DNA from: a virus | Virus record (IMG/VR): IMGVR_UViG_3300042380_000870 | Location: 1-44,461 of that record | Reading direction: 5' to 3' (one strand) | Length of the DNA stretch: 44,461 nt | Shown: positions 3-43,908 of the stretch, in pieces | Position numbering within the stretch: the stretch's first letter is position 1 | Layout: every line of letters starts with the position of its first letter | Notes under the pieces: model-generated | What the model saw: the letters and a program-made list of their open reading frames with translations, nothing else | What the model was told of the DNA's origin: nothing | Databases searched by the model: none | Program-made: the position numbers and the translations under genes

Positions 3-776
3 GGCGTCTGGTACGTTTTTAAGCAGCGCGACGCGGCGTTTGTAAAAGCGCCAAAAACGTATTCATCTGGAAATTGTGTAGGTGCCGGCGACGTTTTTCT
101 TGCCGGTATTATTATGGGTTTTTCGGAATTAGGGGAATTTAATCCCCGTATTCTGACACCAACCACTATCCCGCTGGTCCTCTCTTTCGGTTTTTCAGCG
201 GCAGGGCAACGAGTACGCACAAATAGCACGAAAGCCGTAAATGAGCGGCAGGTGCTCAAAGAGGTTGCCAGCTGTTCGCGCATTGACGGGCGAGTGCTGT
301 CCCCAAGCGAGTTTGTGCGGTTTGCGCAAATTCGCCGAGCGGCGGGCTTTCGCATCGTATTTACGAACGGTTGCTTTGATCTTTTGCACACAGGCCACAG
401 AACGCTATTGCAGCGCGCGCGTGCCGAAGGCGACATATTACTCGTAGCCGTAGATTCCGACGACAACGTACGCAGAAACAAAGGCAAAAATAGGCCTATT
501 CAAGATCAAGAAACACGCGCCGGCAATGTAGCGGCATTGGCCGGCGTTGCGGCTGTCTGTGTGTTTGACGACGCCGCATCGAGCGGGCATAATACGCTGC
601 TCAACCTAATTCGGGACGTGCAACCCGCAGTGCTTGTAAAAGGCGCTGAGTACGCCGGCCGAAGAGTTATTGGCGCTGACGACGTGATGCAACAAGAAGT
701 TCCTGGGCGCGTTGTTCTGGTGCCGATGGTGCCTGGCACAAGCACAACTGCTCTAGTTACAAAAATGAAAGCATGA
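3..776 (+). CDS. HldE-like bifunctional heptose kinase/nucleotidyltransferase (5' truncated by window edge)
   Basis: The reading frame is open from base 3. Bases 81-110 encode GAGDVFLAGI, the PfkB/ribokinase ATP-binding signature, so this is the end of a sugar-kinase domain. After a linker, bases 350-450 encode a cytidylyltransferase domain: FTNGCFDLLHTGH, with HTGH at 387-398, then VDSDDNVRR and later VKGAEY. This order is that of HldE, which phosphorylates D-glycero-beta-D-manno-heptose 7-phosphate and, after dephosphorylation, adenylylates heptose 1-phosphate to ADP-heptose, an LPS core precursor. An ATG at 114 is not the true start because it lies inside the kinase signature region. What I see is the domain order; the heptose substrate is inferred, and another sugar nucleotide is possible. 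The kinase N-terminus lies outside the window. Confidence 0.83.
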   Translation, partial: GVWYVFKQRDAAFVKAPKTYSSGNCVGAGDVFLAGIIMGFSELGEFNPRILTPTTIPLVLSFGFSAAGQRVRTNSTKAVNERQVLKEVASCSRIDGRVLSPSEFVRFAQIRRAAGFRIVFTNGCFDLLHTGHRTLLQRARAEGDILLVAVDSDDNVRRNKGKNRPIQDQETRAGNVAALAGVAAVCVFDDAASSGHNTLLNLIRDVQPAVLVKGAEYAGRRVIGADDVMQQEVPGRVVLVPMVPGTSTTALVTKMKA

Positions 777-13207: not shown

Positions 13208-16200
13208 ATGAGTCTTTTGCATCTGTTCTCAGAAGCGCTTGTTTTTCCGGAAAAGCAAGAAGCGCTTGAAGCTTTGTATCCGGCAATTGATCTGACAGCG
13301 CCTGGCATGCCGCCGCCCGGAGCAAATTTTGTCAAGCACGCAATAGATCTTGGCGACGATCTCAATCTGGACGATATTAAAAAGAAAAAGCAGGCACCTG
13401 CTAGCAAACATCTCGATTATCTGTATCGTCGCGCAATGTACGATAATACGTTTTCTATTCCAGTATTGAGCAAACGCGGCACGTTTACTGCGCTGTTTGT
13501 TCCGGGGCACCTCGTCGGCGATCTAACGAGTGACGATCCGACGATTATTTACGGGCCAAAGCCGGCGCGTGTTATGGTTGTTGGGAAAATGCCCGGCCGC
13601 GATAACCTACACAAACGCGACGCCTGGGCTGGTAGAGGAATTGACGCGCTTATGACCGCGATTCAGAAAGCAAACGTACCGCACACTGAATACGCTAAGT
13701 GGTTTGTTACGTTTGCTTGTAAATTTGCGCCAGAGAACGCCGAGGTTGAAAACATTGAGGCTGCGTGGTTTAAAGATTGCGCTCCGCTTATGGCGCAAGA
13801 GTTTCGGCTTGTCAAACCAGACTACATTCTTTGCCTTGGCGCAGACGCCGTAAAAGCGGTTCTCGGTAGTCCGGTAAAACTTAACGGCCGTGTCGCTGAA
13901 ATTGATGTACCCATGCCAGACGGGTCAACGCACAACATCAAAGTCATGTCGTCGTTGCATCCAGCATATGTTGCGCGTAAATCTGATGCGGCCATAACCG
14001 CCGAATTTGAAGGACAGATTCAGCGGTTTATTGCGCTGACAAACAATGTCCTAATAACGAAAGAGGTTGTGGATCATGCAGAAATTTACACAGAAGAGGC
14101 GTTGGCAGAAACGGTTGACGCTATGCTTGCGGATCCCGACCCCAACGCTAATATCATCGCTATTGACTGCGAGTGGCACGGCGAATACCCGACTGAGCAC
14201 GGTGCATATTTACGCACGATTCAAATTTCCAACAAAGATAAATGGGCTCGCACAATTGTTCTCCGGTATGAGGGCGGCGCAACGGCATTCCGCCCAAGTC
14301 TCGACGCCGCAAGAACGCAACTTACACGTCTTCTTAAATCAACCGCTAGTCGACGCGTACGGGTGGGCGGGCACTTTCTCCGCGCTGACTTGCCGTGGCT
14401 TATTGATTTTGGTGTCGACGTACGTGACGAGTACGCGCCGGATCCTGATGTAAATAATCGGTCGCAGGGCGGCTGGGATACGAGCCTGCTTTATCACGCT
14501 TGCAACGAGACCGCAAAATACGCGCTAGATGACTGCGTTATGCGGTTTACCTCCGCGCCGACATATTGGGAAAAACTGTATGTTTGGAAAAAGACGTTTT
14601 GCGCGCAGAACAAAATTAAACCAGACGCGTTAGGCGGATACGGTGCATGTCCGAGCCACGTGTTGCATCCATACGCGAATTATGACGTAGACGTTACGCG
14701 GCGGATCATGATGTATTTCTACGGCACAAACGGCTATGACGGAAAAATAGCATGTGACGCAAACGGTAATGATTGCTGGGTGCCGTACTGGACAGCGCAT
14801 ATGGCCTCGCTGGCATTTCTTGAAATGGAAATGACAGGCATGGTCATCGACCGAGATCGTACTGACGCGCTTGCTAACATATTTATGGAACAACAGGAAA
14901 CGCTTTTAGCCGAAGTTCGTGAAGAACTAAACTGGCCGGCGTTTAACCCAAAATCGCATCCGCAGCTCGCTGTGGCGCTGTTTGGGCGTAAATTCGCGAA
15001 GAATTTCACCAATAAAATCACTATTCCTGATGACGCGCGCCTGCTCGATCTAACCCCGATCAAGACAACGGGAAAGAGACCGAAGCTGTGGCACACGATC
15101 GACGCGGCTACACAGAGTAAATCGCCGCCGAGCACGGATAAGGAAAGCCTGGGTATTCTTGGCCACGCCAATACTACGGCGGCTAAGATTCGTGATTACA
15201 AGTTTATTGCGCAGGTATTACAATCTGTGCTGCGCGTGCCTAATGTCAAGGATGATGGAGAATTTGACACAGATGATAACGGCAATTATGTCTATGAGAA
15301 GGGTCTTGTCGGCAGTGCGCATGCTGACGGTAAAGTCCGTACTCACTTATTTCAAACAAAAGAAACCGGGCGTGCGTCAAGTTCTCGGCCGCCGCTGCAA
15401 AATCTCAGCTCACGGCGAGAGGACGACTACAGGCGCATTCTCGGCCCAGCCTACACGCATCCGGTGCGCTCGGTACTCAAAGTACCGGAGGGGTGTGTTG
15501 GGATCGAAACCGATCTCACTGGTGCGGAGTTGGCGGTCTTAGCTTGGTTGTCGCAAGATCGTAACATGATTGAACACGTCCGGCGCAACTTACTGCCGGA
15601 AGAGCACCCAGATCATTACGACATTCACTCGCAGCAAGCCGTTAAAACTTTCGCGCTTAAAGGCGTTGTACCGACAAAAACCGGCATGAAAGACGCCGGC
15701 AAAAAAGGTTTACGAGTTGCGGCCAAAAACGTGAATTTCGGTATTCCGTACGGCCGCGGTTCAGAGGCCATCGCTCGGCAGTGTAAAGAAGAGGGCGTCG
15801 AAGTTACGGCGGCTGAGTGCCAAGCGATGATCGATGCGTACTTTGACTCGTATCCAGGTACGCAGACCTTTTTAGCGCAATGCCGAGAGCGGTCGCAGGA
15901 TCCAGGCTGGATCGTAGGCCCGTATGGCCGTATGCGTAGATTTTCGCCGCCGATTTCTGATGACGGCGCGCAGGCTATCATTGCAGACCAACAACGGCAG
16001 GCGCAAAACTTCCCGATTCAGGGCGGAGTTGCTGACGCTGTATCTATTGCGCTGGCCAATTTTTATCGGTACAGAAAAGAACATCCGGATGTGCAGTATG
16101 ACATCGCGCTGCAAATTCATGACGCTATCGTGCTTATTGTTCCCGTAGCGCACGCCGAACGCGTTTACAAAGATGTCATACCAAAATGCATGGTTGACGA

Positions 16201-16357
16201 CGTGCCATTTTGGCCGCGGTATTTAGACGGAGTAGCAATACCCGTAGACGAGCCGTACCACTTTGGCATGGACCGTGATGTATTTGTGCACTGGGGCGAG
16301 AAGATTAAACCTGCCGAGGCCTCGAGTTTAGGCCTCGACTGGTTGCTCGAAAAATAG
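13208..16357 (+). CDS. Family A DNA polymerase with N-terminal UDG-like and 3'-5' exonuclease domains, 1049 aa
   Basis: Three modules are visible. Residues 118-275 resemble a family 4/5 uracil-DNA glycosylase: GKMPGRDN (126-133), CKFAPENAEV, PDYILCLGADA and SSLHPAYV (248-255). Residues 315-490 are a DEDD exonuclease, with AIDCEW (D320, E322), VGGHFLRADLPWL and YDVDVTRR. The rest is a PolA core: motif A TDLTGAELAVLA (D769, E774), motif B RVAAKNVNFGIPYG (R836, K840, F844, Y848) and motif C IHDA (H971, D972, A973). Motif C usually has Glu after His-Asp, here Ala. A UDG-like domain fused to PolA is, as I recall, known from SPO1-type phages. The glycosylase may be active or only a DNA- or uracil-sensing module. 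Confidence 0.92.
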   Translation: MSLLHLFSEALVFPEKQEALEALYPAIDLTAPGMPPPGANFVKHAIDLGDDLNLDDIKKKKQAPASKHLDYLYRRAMYDNTFSIPVLSKRGTFTALFVPGHLVGDLTSDDPTIIYGPKPARVMVVGKMPGRDNLHKRDAWAGRGIDALMTAIQKANVPHTEYAKWFVTFACKFAPENAEVENIEAAWFKDCAPLMAQEFRLVKPDYILCLGADAVKAVLGSPVKLNGRVAEIDVPMPDGSTHNIKVMSSLHPAYVARKSDAAITAEFEGQIQRFIALTNNVLITKEVVDHAEIYTEEALAETVDAMLADPDPNANIIAIDCEWHGEYPTEHGAYLRTIQISNKDKWARTIVLRYEGGATAFRPSLDAARTQLTRLLKSTASRRVRVGGHFLRADLPWLIDFGVDVRDEYAPDPDVNNRSQGGWDTSLLYHACNETAKYALDDCVMRFTSAPTYWEKLYVWKKTFCAQNKIKPDALGGYGACPSHVLHPYANYDVDVTRRIMMYFYGTNGYDGKIACDANGNDCWVPYWTAHMASLAFLEMEMTGMVIDRDRTDALANIFMEQQETLLAEVREELNWPAFNPKSHPQLAVALFGRKFAKNFTNKITIPDDARLLDLTPIKTTGKRPKLWHTIDAATQSKSPPSTDKESLGILGHANTTAAKIRDYKFIAQVLQSVLRVPNVKDDGEFDTDDNGNYVYEKGLVGSAHADGKVRTHLFQTKETGRASSSRPPLQNLSSRREDDYRRILGPAYTHPVRSVLKVPEGCVGIETDLTGAELAVLAWLSQDRNMIEHVRRNLLPEEHPDHYDIHSQQAVKTFALKGVVPTKTGMKDAGKKGLRVAAKNVNFGIPYGRGSEAIARQCKEEGVEVTAAECQAMIDAYFDSYPGTQTFLAQCRERSQDPGWIVGPYGRMRRFSPPISDDGAQAIIADQQRQAQNFPIQGGVADAVSIALANFYRYRKEHPDVQYDIALQIHDAIVLIVPVAHAERVYKDVIPKCMVDDVPFWPRYLDGVAIPVDEPYHFGMDRDVFVHWGEKIKPAEASSLGLDWLLEK

Positions 16358-30767: not shown

Positions 30768-32693
30768 GTGGCTTATCTAAGCTCGAATAATTTTGCCACT
30801 TCCGGCCCTGGCGTATCCGCTGACGACCGGTTTCCGGACCCGTTCTGCGACATTGCGTCGCTTTCTATGCCTGAATCGATTCAGGCTGCGCTGCGCTGGT
30901 GCGAGTTCATTATGAACTGCAACGGCTTGTACCGGCAGGCCGTTGACCGTGTTGTGTCGTATTTTTTGACAGACATCCACGTAAGCGAAGACGGCAAAAA
31001 CAAACTCGGCCGGGAAGAAAAAGACAAGTACGTCGAATTTTTTGAGAACACGCTAGGCATTAAAAACGCGTTGCACTCCGTCGCCATGGACTATCTAACC
31101 TATGGCAATAGTTTTACCAGCGTTTTGGTGCCGTTCAAACGCTATTTGTCTTGTAAGCGGTGCAGCTTAGAGATGCCGCTAGCGCAAGTGTTCAACAAAC
31201 CCGCGTGTAAATTCAAATGGCAAGAATTTGAGTTTCACGCCACTTGTCCGCAATGTCATTATGCCGGCCCGTGGACGCATATCGACCGGCGAAGTGGTGA
31301 CGCCGGTGATCTCAAAATCAAGCGGTGGAATCCGCATGAGATGGAACTGATTTGGGATCCGTATACCGACGAAGTCAGATATGTGTGGCGCATTTCTGAA
31401 GAGTATCGCGCCTTAATTCGACAGGGGCATTTGCACCACTTGGAGCGCGCCAGCTGGGAAGTAATTCAAGCTGTCAAAGACAACCAGAATTTGATGTTCG
31501 ACAAGGACGTCATTTTTCATCTGAAAGAAGACGCGCTCGCTGGTTTACGTAATCGCGGCTGGGGCATATCTCGTATTCTGGCTAACTTTCGACAAGCCTG
31601 GTATGTGCAGATTCTCATGCGCTACAACGAGGCTGTTGCCTTGGATTACGTTATTCCGTTTCGCGTAATCACGCCGGCGCCACGCGGCGGCGACGCAGCT
31701 TCAAGCGATCCCGTACATACGATTAATCTCAGCAATTTTACCGGGCGCGTACAGGCAATGCTGCGCGCACGAAGGCTTGACCCGGCCCGCTGGAACGTGT
31801 TACCGTTCCCTGTCAATTATCAGGCACTTGGCGGCGATGCATCACAGCTTGCGCCGAAAGACCTGTTAGATCAGGGCTTTGACACATTGTTGAAGTGTAT
31901 CGGTATGCCGGTTGAGCTGTTTAACGGAAGCTTGACGATGCAAGCTGCCCCTGCGGCGCTTAGATTGTTCGAGGCAAACTGGGCGCATTTACCGCACAAT
32001 TTAAACCGTTTTCTGGCGAATGTCGCGTCTGCTGTTGCCAGAGTTAAATCTTGGGAGCCGGCAGCTGTGCGACTAATGCGCGTAACGCACGCAGACGATC
32101 TAAACCGGCAGATGGCAAAGCTGCAGCTGATGATGGGTCAGCAAATCAGCAAGACCACGGGCCTCAAATCTATCGGACTCGACTACGACGAAGAGACAAA
32201 GCAGCTTCTCGAAGAAGAAAAGATTTACGCAGAAGAACAAACCAAAATGCAGCGCGAGATGGAACAGGCGCAGCAGATGGACGCGCTTTCACAGTCCGCC
32301 GGCCCAGCAGTTGGCGGCGTAGGCGCTCCGGGCGCGGGGGCGACAGGGATGCCGCAACAACCGGGCATGACGCCCGCCCCGCCCGGCCCGCCAGCGAATC
32401 CCGTCGATCAGTTCATCATGCAGCGACAAAATACGCCAAATGTGCCGCGCACACCAGAGGATTTGCAAGCTCAAGCGCAGTTGCTTGCGCAGCAGATACT
32501 GTCGCTGCCTGAGTCTGTAAAAGACAGCCAGCTTATCAAACTGAAGAAGACAGATCCCACAATGCACGCACTAGTGCGCAGCATCATCGAAGACATCCGA
32601 CAACAAGCGCAGGTTGAAGGCGGCGCGCAGCTTATGGCGCAGCAGTATGGCCAGCCAGCCGGCGGACAAGGCCCGCTACCGCCTGGGCCGTAG
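30768..32693 (+). CDS. Portal protein, 641 aa (GTG start)
   Basis: Portal-type sequence. After a helical N-terminus (ALRWCEFIMNCNGLYRQAVDRVVSYF), the stem and wing region includes YLTYGNSF, a motif common in portals. A later region reads GWGISRILANFRQAWY, then GMPVELFNGS and a helical crown with Gln/Glu-rich coil. The C-terminus is Gln/Pro/Gly-rich and flexible. A CKRC...CPQC pair near residues 130-165 suggests an unusual zinc-binding insertion. Twelve copies would form the head vertex through which DNA is packaged. It is the clearest virion gene in the window; terminase and capsid genes must lie elsewhere. Confidence 0.86.
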   Translation: MAYLSSNNFATSGPGVSADDRFPDPFCDIASLSMPESIQAALRWCEFIMNCNGLYRQAVDRVVSYFLTDIHVSEDGKNKLGREEKDKYVEFFENTLGIKNALHSVAMDYLTYGNSFTSVLVPFKRYLSCKRCSLEMPLAQVFNKPACKFKWQEFEFHATCPQCHYAGPWTHIDRRSGDAGDLKIKRWNPHEMELIWDPYTDEVRYVWRISEEYRALIRQGHLHHLERASWEVIQAVKDNQNLMFDKDVIFHLKEDALAGLRNRGWGISRILANFRQAWYVQILMRYNEAVALDYVIPFRVITPAPRGGDAASSDPVHTINLSNFTGRVQAMLRARRLDPARWNVLPFPVNYQALGGDASQLAPKDLLDQGFDTLLKCIGMPVELFNGSLTMQAAPAALRLFEANWAHLPHNLNRFLANVASAVARVKSWEPAAVRLMRVTHADDLNRQMAKLQLMMGQQISKTTGLKSIGLDYDEETKQLLEEEKIYAEEQTKMQREMEQAQQMDALSQSAGPAVGGVGAPGAGATGMPQQPGMTPAPPGPPANPVDQFIMQRQNTPNVPRTPEDLQAQAQLLAQQILSLPESVKDSQLIKLKKTDPTMHALVRSIIEDIRQQAQVEGGAQLMAQQYGQPAGGQGPLPPGP

Positions 32694-32706
32694 TAGAGGC
32701 CCAATA

Positions 32707-33747
32707 ATGCGTGTCGGCATTTATACACACTACGCGCACTGTGACCAGGCCTATTTAGCTGCAAGACTGGCGCTGCTGTTGCAGAAACTTGGCGCAGAGT
32801 TCGATATCTACTCCGATAATACGCCGGGTTTTTTGGGTCTACCGTGCGACAGCGCCGTAGTGACACGCAACATAATCAAATACACCGAGTGGGCTAAAAA
32901 ACAGCGCGTAATTATTTGGACGCACGTTCCGCCCATAGAGCAAATAAATTACGCAAAGCGCAAAAACATAAAAACAGTAGTAGCACCGATGTGGCAGGAG
33001 CTAGTTAGGCCGTTCAAAAAAACGCTCCAACGCGCTGATCACGTAATTACGATGAGCGCAGAATGCCAAATGCTCTTTTCTGAGATATTCAAATTGCGCT
33101 CTGCTGAGTTAATTCCGTTTGATCCGGGTTTGCCTGTTTTCAAAAAATCCGGAACTGTAAATGCGCGCAATGTCCGTATTTTTTTGCCGTGGTTTGATCG
33201 AAACGCTAAATGTACTTCCGCGGCATTTATCGCATCGTTGCGGTTTCTTATCGAACATATGGAAGAGGCGTATCTAACAGTAGCTATAACGCCAAGTCAA
33301 TTCTCGCCCTCAATAGTCAAGTTTTTCTTGACGCTTCAGCGGCGTTGCAAAAATCGCGTAAGTATTTTGCGCGGCGTACCGGTAGTTTCTAGGGCGCATT
33401 TGTATTCCGCGCACGACATTACGCTACTACCGGCGGAGTGCGACAATTACGGGCTCTGCGCTATAACGTCTATCACGATGGGTACGCCGGTTTTAGCTAC
33501 AGCTATTTCTCCGCAAACAGATTTTTTGTTCCCAGACGTCAATTCTGTGCTGGTAAAGACTGACATAGACTACGACGAAAATGGCGTAGCTCATGCACTA
33601 CCAGACTACGACAAATTCATGTACGTACTACAAGAGCTTGTGGCTGAACCGCGACATATCCAGCGGTTAAATCACAAAACAAACTACAACTTAAACGCCC
33701 GCAAGAATGCGTTTGAAATGAGCTGGACAAACATATTCGACGCATGA
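32707..33747 (+). CDS. Glycosyltransferase, GT-B fold (GT4-like), 346 aa
   Basis: The start ATG 32707 is preferred over an in-frame ATG at 32614 inside the portal gene. The N-terminal lobe opens MRVGIYTHYAHCDQAYLAARL, a GT-B first strand and helix. The C-terminal lobe has LLPAECDNYGLCAITSITMGTPVLA, the GT4-type E-x7-E nucleotide-sugar site. The protein is soluble and cytoplasmic. Acceptor and sugar are unknown. Such enzymes in phages modify DNA, capsid or host glycans. It lies between the portal and other virion genes. Confidence 0.83.
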   Translation: MRVGIYTHYAHCDQAYLAARLALLLQKLGAEFDIYSDNTPGFLGLPCDSAVVTRNIIKYTEWAKKQRVIIWTHVPPIEQINYAKRKNIKTVVAPMWQELVRPFKKTLQRADHVITMSAECQMLFSEIFKLRSAELIPFDPGLPVFKKSGTVNARNVRIFLPWFDRNAKCTSAAFIASLRFLIEHMEEAYLTVAITPSQFSPSIVKFFLTLQRRCKNRVSILRGVPVVSRAHLYSAHDITLLPAECDNYGLCAITSITMGTPVLATAISPQTDFLFPDVNSVLVKTDIDYDENGVAHALPDYDKFMYVLQELVAEPRHIQRLNHKTNYNLNARKNAFEMSWTNIFDA

Positions 33748-34810: not shown

Positions 34811-35464
34811 ATGTTTATTTGTCTGGAAGGTATTGACGGCGCTGGCAAAAGTACGCAAGCGCGGTTGCTTTCTGATTACTTTGCGTGTCAAAAACGCCTA
34901 GTAGAGTTAGTTGCCGACCCGGGCACAACTAAAATCGGAAAGGCCATTCGACAAATACTGCTTGATAATGACGACCCGATTTCAGAGCGCGCGCAGATGT
35001 TACTTTTCTCTGCAGCCCGCGCGGAATTAAGCCATTACATTCAAAAGAAACTAAGCGACGCGTATTCAATTGTTTGCGATCGTTGGCTGCTGTCTACGCT
35101 CGTTTATCAGGTTGCGTTAAACGATACAGACGAGCGGCTCGTATACGACATTTTTGATCACACCGCTATTCGTCCAGATATCTGCGTTCTGCTAGACATA
35201 GATCCGGAGGACGCCGATTCGCGCAAACAGCACGAGACACGCAAAGACAGGTATGAGCGCGTTACGTTAGCTGAGAAAAAAATGATGCGCGCGGCTTATT
35301 TAGATTACGCCAGAAGGCTCGCGGTAACTGAGCCGAAAACAATCGTGGCTATTGTGCCCGCTTACGGCACAGTAGACGAGGTTAATCAACGGGTTTTAGA
35401 TGTCGTTTTGCGCGGAAAGGAATCCAATGCAAGGATTAAAGTTGCTGGCGCCCGTACTAACTAA
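34811..35464 (+). CDS. tmk: Thymidylate kinase, 217 aa
   Basis: P-loop nucleoside-monophosphate kinase. Walker A is GIDGAGKS (7-14). The dTMP-site motif DRWLLSTLVYQ begins at D90. VCVLLDIDPEDAD-like and RKDRYERV segments form the lid region. It phosphorylates dTMP to dTDP with ATP. The usual Arg-Glu-Pro-Gly motif appears as ADPGTTKIG, so the arginine is missing and Glu is Asp. Whether substrate range changes cannot be read here. Together with the thymidine kinase at 42223 and cytidine deaminase at 41852 it supports dTTP supply. Confidence 0.88.
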   Translation: MFICLEGIDGAGKSTQARLLSDYFACQKRLVELVADPGTTKIGKAIRQILLDNDDPISERAQMLLFSAARAELSHYIQKKLSDAYSIVCDRWLLSTLVYQVALNDTDERLVYDIFDHTAIRPDICVLLDIDPEDADSRKQHETRKDRYERVTLAEKKMMRAAYLDYARRLAVTEPKTIVAIVPAYGTVDEVNQRVLDVVLRGKESNARIKVAGARTN

Positions 35465-41304: not shown

Positions 41305-41820
41305 ATGGCATTGCACCAAACGTTCCAGCTTATTCAACTAAAACGCGGAACAGCTGCCGATTTGGTCGAGCTGAATCCGCTTCTCGAAGCAGGCGAGATA
41401 ATCATAGAACTAGACACCGGGCGATTTAAAATCGGCAACGGCGAGCTTTATTGGCTGCAGCTACCTTACGCGAATAGCTCTTCTGGCTACAGTTCTGTTG
41501 TTGCTTTGTCGGATGTGATTGGGCTGCAAACTGCGCTGAACAATAAACAACCAGCTGGGGATTACGCGTTAAACAGCGATCCGCGGCTAACTGACGCCCG
41601 CACGCCGGTTGCGCATACGCACACAATCGCCGACGTCGCCGGCTTGGACGAAGCGCTTGACCAAAAACAGCCAATCGGAGATTATGCGTTCTTCGTCGAC
41701 CCGCCGGCTAGCGCGTCGTCTTCTGGCGTTACTGGCGCGGTTGCGCGCGACACAAATTTTTTTTATGTGTGTGTTGCGCCTAATACCTGGATGCGCGCAG
41801 CGCTATCGACGTGGACTTGA
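41305..41820 (+). CDS. Tail-fibre protein, 171 aa
   Basis: Fibre-attachment module FQLIQLKRGTAADLVELNPLLEAGEI then GRFKIGNGELYWLQLPY. The middle has two related units, LSDVIGLQTALNNKQPAGDYAL and VAGLDEALDQKQPIGDYAFF, matching the unit in the gene at 39593. The C-terminus is a short Trp-containing beta domain. Probably a fibre or spike; the repeated units are sites for recombination between fibre genes. Confidence 0.78.
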   Translation: MALHQTFQLIQLKRGTAADLVELNPLLEAGEIIIELDTGRFKIGNGELYWLQLPYANSSSGYSSVVALSDVIGLQTALNNKQPAGDYALNSDPRLTDARTPVAHTHTIADVAGLDEALDQKQPIGDYAFFVDPPASASSSGVTGAVARDTNFFYVCVAPNTWMRAALSTWT

Positions 41821-41851
41821 CCCGCAAAATCTACTTGGTATAACCAGCACC

Positions 41852-42220
41852 ATGCACGACAATCCGCTTTTAGAGATGGCGCAAAAAATTGCTGTTAAAG
41901 CGCATGCGCCTTATTCTCGGTTTTACGTCGGCGCCGCGGCACAATTCAGCGATGGAAAAATTTACTGCGGCGTAAACGTAGAAAACAAGTCGTATGGGCT
42001 GACAATTTGCGCGGAGCGTTCGGCTATTTTTGCGGGTATTGCCGCCGGCAGCCGCAAACTTGATGCCATAGCCGTGTGCAGCCTAGCGCACGATAACTGC
42101 TATCCGTGTGGCGCATGCCTGCAAGTAATCGCAGAATTCGGCACGCCAGACACAAAAATCTTTGTTGGTCACGAAGTCATGACACTAAACGATGTTCTTC
42201 CAAAAAGGTTTGAGCTATAA
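41852..42220 (+). CDS. cdd: Cytidine deaminase, 122 aa
   Basis: The catalytic signature CAERS (C53, E55) and CYPCGAC (C86, C89) supply zinc ligands and the proton-shuttling Glu. Length and motifs match homotetrameric cytidine deaminase, which turns (deoxy)cytidine into (deoxy)uridine. The start is ATG 41852; an in-frame ATG at 41609 falls inside the fibre gene. The gene is followed 2 bases later by thymidine kinase, so both are probably cotranslated. Confidence 0.92.
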   Translation: MHDNPLLEMAQKIAVKAHAPYSRFYVGAAAQFSDGKIYCGVNVENKSYGLTICAERSAIFAGIAAGSRKLDAIAVCSLAHDNCYPCGACLQVIAEFGTPDTKIFVGHEVMTLNDVLPKRFEL

Positions 42221-42222
42221 GC

Positions 42223-42858
42223 ATGGCTAAGCTGTACTTCCGGTACGGTGTTGTTGGTAGCGCAAAAACTCTAAATCTTCTGGCCGTTGCGCACAATTAT
42301 CGACAGCAGCGCAAAAATGTATTGCTCATCAAGCCGGCCGTCGACACAAGATTCGGATCAAAAACAATCGGCACGCGAGCTGGTTTAACAGCCACGGCTG
42401 ATATTGTTGTGCCGGATAGCGGCGCACTAGATCTGACTGAAACAAAAAACGTTTCGTGCATTCTTGTAGATGAAGCGCAGTTCTTGCCGGTTACAACGGT
42501 AGAACGGCTACACAAGATTGCGCACGCTGTCGAAAACGGCATTCCCGTTATTTGTTATGGCCTGCGCACAGACTTCCGACTTGAATTATTTCCCGCGTCG
42601 AAACGGTTAATGGAGCTGGCCGATACGATAGAAGAGATCAAAACAACATGCACAGATTGCGATCGCAAGGCTGTGTTTAATCTGAAGATCAAAAACAACA
42701 AACCAGTATTAGACGGGCCAACCGTAGAGCTCGGGTTCGAAGACACGTATATTCCTGTGTGCGCGTCATGCTACGAGTTGCGGCATGTGCGTTATCTAGA
42801 GTGGAAGGACAATCAACGCAAACTTTGGGCAAAAGGAGTTCCGCATGACTTCGCCTGA
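42223..42858 (+). CDS. tdk: Thymidine kinase, 211 aa
   Basis: Type II thymidine kinase. The P-loop region is YGVVGSAKTLNLL (residues 8-20); the final Gly before Lys is Ala here. DEAQF (D83-F87) is the catalytic acidic motif, and ICYGLRTDFRLELF follows as the substrate lasso. A zinc site is formed by CTDC and CASC near residues 144-190. It phosphorylates thymidine or deoxyuridine. Paired with cytidine deaminase and thymidylate kinase it can make dTTP from salvage. Confidence 0.9.
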   Translation: MAKLYFRYGVVGSAKTLNLLAVAHNYRQQRKNVLLIKPAVDTRFGSKTIGTRAGLTATADIVVPDSGALDLTETKNVSCILVDEAQFLPVTTVERLHKIAHAVENGIPVICYGLRTDFRLELFPASKRLMELADTIEEIKTTCTDCDRKAVFNLKIKNNKPVLDGPTVELGFEDTYIPVCASCYELRHVRYLEWKDNQRKLWAKGVPHDFA

Positions 42859-43448: not shown

Positions 43449-43521
43449 GGGGCTGTAGCTCAGTCGGTAGAGCATCGGACTTTTAATCCGTTGGTCCTGG
43501 GTTCGAGCCCCAGCGGCCCCA
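43449..43521 (+). tRNA. tRNA-Lys (anticodon TTT)
   Basis: A 73-nt cloverleaf: acceptor GGGGCTG (43449-43455) with CGGCCCC (43514-43520), one G-T pair. The D-arm is GTAGCTCAGTCGGTAGAGC. The anticodon loop CTTTTAA gives TTT. The T-arm is CTGGG-TTCGAGC-CCCAG, and the discriminator is A. CCA is not fully encoded. Leader 43439-43448 pairs with 43521-43530 over ten bases with one G-T pair, making a 17-bp extended helix. Confidence 0.95.
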
Positions 43522-43558
43522 CCGAGCGCCGTGGCTTCTTTTTCTCAAGGAGGGGAAA

Positions 43559-43774: not shown

Positions 43775-43787
43775 TTTTTGCGCGCAT

Positions 43788-43870
43788 GGGGTTGTGGCGT
43801 AACGGCAGCCGCAGCGGACTTAAAATCCGCTGGGAGTAATCCCGTGTGGGTTCGATTCCCACCAGCCCCA
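43788..43870 (+). tRNA. tRNA-Leu (anticodon TAA)
   Basis: A class II tRNA of 83 nt: acceptor GGGGTTG with CAGCCCC, D-arm, anticodon stem GCGGA/TCCGC with loop CTTAAAA giving TAA. The long variable arm has GGGA/TCCC, the T-arm is GTGGG-TTCGATT-CCCAC, and the discriminator is A. CCA is not encoded. A 12-bp inverted repeat (43780-43791 and 43871-43882) flanks and partly overlaps it, followed by a T-rich run. Confidence 0.95.
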
Positions 43871-43908
43871 CCCCATGCGCGCGTTTTCTTTAGCTATGCG
43901 AGGAGCTA

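Follow-up and report, generated by a model that had tools for sequence, protein, structure and literature searches.

The phage genome analyzed here carries an intact two-domain hldE gene that retains the signature motifs of the bifunctional heptose kinase/adenyltransferase, lies in a conserved operon, and is accompanied by a gene for the ADP-heptose 6-epimerase HldD in the same phage. We consider it likely that this is a real, intact, and probably active phage HldE that acts together with the phage's own HldD, with a heptose phosphate as its presumed substrate. What is unusual about the gene is its fixed partnership with two other proteins, i.e., a GSU2086-like protein with an HTH-like region (HTH-GSU2086 protein) and a protein that we refer to as X.

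The window, i.e., the whole stretch of DNA that was analyzed, is one entire virus record of 44461 bp. Its main features are the following:

3-776 (+): 3' part of the HldE-like gene, 257 of about 506 aa; the frame enters from the left edge and is closed by a stop codon, with the 5' part beyond the contig edge.
81-92 (+): GAGD motif of the PfkB-type kinase half, seen in the sequence and kept in 6/6 phages and 41/41 cellular rows of our alignment.
351-770 (+): nucleotidyltransferase half with TNGCFDLLHTGH at 363-398; CTP_transf_like (PF01467) E 1.1e-13, rfaE_dom_II E 1.9e-41 over residues 111-256.
32614-33747 (+): GT4-like glycosyltransferase, speculatively a user of the sugar; phrog_2170 E 2.3e-6, PF00534 E 4.1e-4 with 20.4 of 26.4 bits, i.e., under the cut-off.
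2067-2137: tRNA gene, Gln(ttg).
43449-43523: tRNA gene, Lys(ttt).
43787-43873: tRNA gene, Leu(taa).

As the original prediction had stated, GAGDVFLAG (81-107) and HTGH (387-398) lie in one reading frame. Since the window is an entire virus record, the 5' half of hldE had to come from elsewhere. Virus record G001 (53,609 bases; locus L002) matches window positions 1-40802 at 99.98-99.995% identity and contains the complete gene as an open frame of 524 aa (L002:9200-10774), in which an ATG at L002:9254, overlapping the stop codon of X, would be the likely start and yield a protein of about 506 aa. Because this near-identical phage has the whole frame, hldE in the window is cut by the contig edge and not by mutation. 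Full-length homologs in the same surroundings were found on five more phage contigs (L003, 500 aa; L004, 502 aa; L005, 497 aa; L006, 504 aa; L020, 506 aa), and these together with the window phage (L002) are the six phages compared below. The upstream extension that had been proposed as a check thus reveals an intact kinase half in G001 and in all five relatives.

The HldE profile NF008454 was the best whole-length match, spanning residues 23-523 of the 524-aa frame of L002 (E 5.1e-61, 206.7 bits), with E 5.1e-61 to 3.0e-69 in four phages and E 1.9e-65 and 1.9e-66 in the other two; PF00294 and PF01467 are both present in one frame in L002 and L004. Together with the PF01467 and rfaE_dom_II matches, this bears out beyond chance the predicted HldE-type order of a PfkB kinase followed by a nucleotidyltransferase. 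The phage proteins resemble HldE (RfaE) of E. coli K-12 and others in domain content and domain order and in having this profile as best whole-length match, and they keep the motifs GAGD, D-Y-K, N--E, TNG-FD, HxGH, KG--RP, and KG. They differ from cellular HldE in falling below the curated NCBIfam cut-offs, in a kinase half that is the most diverged part, and in having the HTH-GSU2086 protein and X as operon partners. More precisely, all six phages miss the cut-offs for the whole protein (NF008454; 207-234 of 521 bits), domain I (TIGR02198; 90-114 of 345 bits), and domain II (TIGR02199; 139-154 of 181.5 bits). Five cellular HldE used as controls scored 431-527, 296-395, and 185-212 bits, so that four of the five miss 521 and three miss 345 as well while all pass 181.5, with the phages well below them; E. 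coli HldE reached 886, 433, and 214 bits. Compared to these controls, divergence of the phage enzymes is therefore moderate in the transferase half and strong in the kinase half.

A similar picture emerges from individual alignment positions. The 41 cellular HldE rows have 61 columns with at least 93% conservation. All six phages agree with them at 43 of these (including GAGD, TNGCFD, and HxGH), and each phage on its own keeps 46-51, compared to a median of 55 for 35 other viral rows. The kept motifs are presumed to include the catalytic residues. Several positions that do not vary among cellular HldE have other residues in the phages; for example, between four and six of the six phages deviate at P37, D258, N375, and P417 (E. 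coli numbering). The nearest solved structures by sequence were 5x9q, a putative cytidylyltransferase (best, E 1.9e-18), and 4e84, a heptose-7-P kinase (E 7e-8).

HldD scored above its cut-off (TIGR02197, 274.6 bits) in all five contigs of the lineage that reach far enough (G001, 341.5; G003, 287.4; G004, 283.6; G005, 300; and G059, the contig of L020, 286.6 bits), and a protein-level check of two contigs gave 341.8 and 284.2 bits. G000 and G002 gave no HldD match, but both contigs stop at hldE or no more than about 1 kb from it. The hldD gene of G001 occupies 51630-52550, placing it 10.8-11.7 kb upstream of where the window begins. Aligned to E. coli HldD, the phage protein largely keeps the Y--SK, RYFNVYGP-E--K, and TQADL-LR regions, with Y140 and K178 as the catalytic pair. 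That the same phage encodes HldD supports heptose as the substrate of its HldE.

GmhA-type SIS_2 proteins were found in none of 15 virus records and GmhB in two of these 15, none of them among G000-G005, and a search of the ORFs of locus L020 (G059) with E. coli GmhA and GmhB retrieved neither. Because neither enzyme was found in G000-G005, the host probably carries out both steps. As a separate observation, a GmhB-like phosphatase is encoded in the flank of 17 of 80 viral loci (best 80 of 569 relatives; L007, L030, L045, L051, and others), mostly beside HldE and HldD, with many near-copies among them and one locus, L027, that looks cellular; four such proteins scored 136-140 bits compared to a GmhB cut-off of 178. 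The original prediction had also counted three glycosyltransferases in the window as possible users of the sugar donor, of which scans of the longer ORFs (28 with Pfam, ten with PHROGs) leave a single weak match at 32614-33747. GT9 heptosyltransferase matches were found in the sister phages G005 and G059 and in none of G000-G004, and a Pfam scan of 37 ORFs in the upstream half of G003 (E 1e-4) yielded 13 families, none of them a glycosyltransferase.

Based on these gene contents, the kinase half of HldE would phosphorylate D-glycero-D-manno-heptose 7-phosphate at C1 and the transferase half would join heptose 1-phosphate with AMP to form ADP-heptose, after which phage HldD would convert ADP-D,D-heptose to ADP-L,D-heptose; the host would probably provide the GmhA (isomerase) and GmhB (phosphatase) activities. 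A glycosyltransferase would then probably attach the sugar to the host surface or to a phage product, and the host LPS might be remodeled in this way. The suggested relevance of ADP-heptose as a host innate-immune signal, sensed by ALPK1, concerns vertebrates (PMC11573728) and has no visible bearing on this phage.

The reading as a phage HldE is favored by the full frames, the whole-length profile match, the kept columns, the presence of HldD, the coupling of X and HldE, and reports of viral ADP-heptose enzymes, and it is weakened by the missed cut-offs, the incomplete set of conserved columns, and the absence of matches to GmhA in 15 virus records, to GmhB in G000-G005, and to GT9 in G000-G004. 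The missed cut-offs, the diverged kinase half, and the changes at columns fixed in cells such as P37, D258, N375, and P417 would also fit an HldE-derived enzyme that now acts on another sugar phosphate (another heptose, a hexose, or a pentose), yielding a different nucleotide sugar. We regard this as rather unlikely, given that the same phages encode an HldD that is above its cut-off and largely keeps the HldD signatures, and that ADP-heptose is the known substrate of this epimerase. It is very improbable that the transferase half instead belongs to a non-heptose enzyme, e.g., a glycerol-3-phosphate cytidylyltransferase, that became fused to a sugar kinase. Such enzymes are part of the same cytidylyltransferase-like superfamily, and glycerol-3-P and ethanolamine-P cytidylyltransferases are also in the list of solved structures; however, the HldE profile spans both halves, and the full L002 protein scored 139.3 bits with rfaE_dom_II (domain II) and 91.1 with domain I but only 36.8 with the glycerol-3-phosphate cytidylyltransferase profile TIGR01518 (28-56 bits across the six phages, cut-off 165.4), so that the HMM comparison proposed earlier assigns the transferase half to the heptose type. 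Finally, a decaying or chimeric remnant, as might be suspected from the truncated gene and missing kinase half in the window, is hardly credible, since the same phage and five relatives sharing its gene order have full open frames with kept motifs, which rules out a disrupted kinase half.

A phage HldE is in itself a known kind of gene, because viral ADP-heptose enzymes have already been published: heptose enzymes are reported to extend to viruses, with enzymes from the different kingdoms making ADP-heptose (PMC11573728). A commentary states that the phosphatase is absent in viruses (PMC11461863), and another study describes a cyanophage with heptose kinase, isomerase, and epimerase (PMC7378029). 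Our phages share with these systems virus-borne genes for heptose kinase/transferase and epimerase; they differ in forming a separate HldE clade and, for the window phage, in a transferase without the arginine of the promiscuity motif. This motif, (F/L)XXGRSTT, marks promiscuous NDP-heptose synthases (STTR5; PMC11573728), though it is not strictly required according to the commentary (PMC11461863). The window phage has MVPGTSTT at this place, and among the six phages only L020 has the R, with M replacing F/L. For the enzyme of the window phage, this would predict that ATP is preferred. In PHROGs, the transferase half matches phrog_7878 (bifunctional heptose kinase/adenyltransferase, E 9.2e-24), a family of 131 positions that comprises the transferase only, whereas the window phage has the kinase fused to it. 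A tblastn search of named phages gave 39 records, many of them cyanophages, with one covering at least 80% of the query; several of the matched genes are already annotated as heptose kinase/adenyltransferase. A megablast search of window positions 1-25000 against phages gave no match.

Viral relatives were sampled by a scan with the window's 257 aa (599 pattern matches, 569 relatives, of which the best 80 were used) and cellular ones by a search with P0001, again as the best 80 of 585 relatives and thus not as the full set. In a quick tree of 82 rows (41 cellular, the six phages, and 35 other viral) whose deepest forks are weak, the six phages form an HldE clade of their own (SH-aLRT 99). All 41 cellular rows fall outside of this clade, and 33 of the 35 other viral rows stand in separate groups or singly while two are placed among cells. 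The closest cellular HldE are often from Planctomycetota (within the best 80 of 585 relatives), and the phage clade is not nested among cells. When the phage alignment was used to search genome contigs, it gave 20 pattern matches, none of them a relative.

The gene order GSU2086-like protein, X, HldE is common to all six phages, with L003 being cut inside X. In five of them, the start of hldE and the stop of X overlap, and in L005 hldE starts 2 bases downstream of that stop. The protein encoded first in this cassette matches NF052581 (GSU2086) with E 2.8e-14 and 53.4 bits in L002 and E 1.6e-18 and 67.3 bits in L004, below the cut-off of 250 bits (best viral score 94.2); such matches under the cut-off were found in four of 15 virus records. 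Its C-terminal part is predicted to adopt a deoxyhypusine synthase / ArgZ fold (mean pLDDT 70.0; Foldseek E 3.8e-5 and 1.5e-4; VIA Z 17.2 over 187 and 16.9 over 210 residues), and its N-terminal part has a weak phage-repressor likeness (phrog_2328, E 1.6e-4 in L006, not matched by L002 and L005). The protein thus resembles the GSU2086 family of Geobacter and others by its profile match and its coupling to hldE, but it has an extra N-terminal HTH-like region, scores under the cut-off, and lacks the cellular motifs K-G, IHD-E, and TSE apart from one D and one H.

Protein X matched no family at a useful E in NCBIfam, Pfam, or PHROGs (one match at E 0.054 for X of L004) and nothing by tblastn in 50,697 phage records. 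Structure prediction gave a weak model for X (mean pLDDT 68.4); Foldseek searches of PDB and BFVD retrieved nothing at E 0.001, the best VIA match was Z 7.5 over 71 residues, and no fold was assigned. Viral scans with X (4 loci) and with the HTH-GSU2086 protein (3 loci) returned only contigs already known and must be insensitive, because they missed L006 and L020. Just 5' of the HTH-GSU2086 gene lies a conserved protein of 319-335 aa (L002:6097-7062, L004:6049-7008, L020:5836-6843) without a family match in these three loci.

For Geobacter, PMC5585712 lists GSU2085 as hldE, GSU2086 as a "hypothetical cytoplasmic protein in sugar biosynthesis operon", and GSU2087 as gmhA, with transposon scores for growth on electrodes of -3.1, -3.2, and -3.7, respectively. 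In our own search, GSU2086 exceeded its cut-off with 18 matches in 16 of 44 genomes (drawn from the best 80 of 585 relatives), a sample that, being chosen for having an HldE-type gene and including some short contigs, favors the presence of that gene but not its adjacency. Twelve of the 18 loci have a gmhA- or hldE-type neighbor, which in one case is a kinase half where the contig ends. Among the remaining six, a weak kinase-like ORF alone was seen twice and a GT9-like ORF once, and nothing of the kind was seen at three. That GSU2086 might stand in for GmhA is doubtful because gmhA adjoins it in Geobacter (PMC5585712) and in seven of the 18 cellular loci.

Tentatively, the HTH-GSU2086 protein and X could be dedicated parts of the heptose system, the former having lost the cellular motifs and turned into a regulator that senses a heptose or an NAD-type ligand via its deoxyhypusine-synthase-like fold, and the latter directing or using heptose; we consider this possible though somewhat doubtful. 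If true, phages would reveal an unrecognized GSU2086 step or sensor tied to ADP-heptose also in bacteria. The role of heptose enzymes in viruses has been stated to be unsolved (PMC11573728), and a lineage that consistently carries HldE in one operon with the same two partners, together with HldD, offers concrete genes for this question. The cassette also provides an independent, viral link between ADP-heptose and GSU2086, which in Geobacter is an uncharacterized member of the hldE-gmhA operon. We found no paper on this cassette in the open PMC literature, which is no proof of absence.

Other genes of these phages are of interest in their own right. The related phage G003 encodes an AAA_5/CbbQ-type ATPase and a CobT-type VWA protein (L172:2714-4309 (-) and another ORF). 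In the window itself, a 1049-aa frame (13208-16357, +) encodes a family A DNA polymerase in which a uracil-DNA-glycosylase (UDG)-like domain at the N-terminus (residues 115-261) precedes the exonuclease and then the polymerase. It also encodes a thymidylate kinase (34811-35464, +), a deoxycytidylate-deaminase-type protein (41609-42220, +), and a thymidine kinase (42223-42858, +), nucleotide genes that are possibly connected with the UDG-polymerase fusion.
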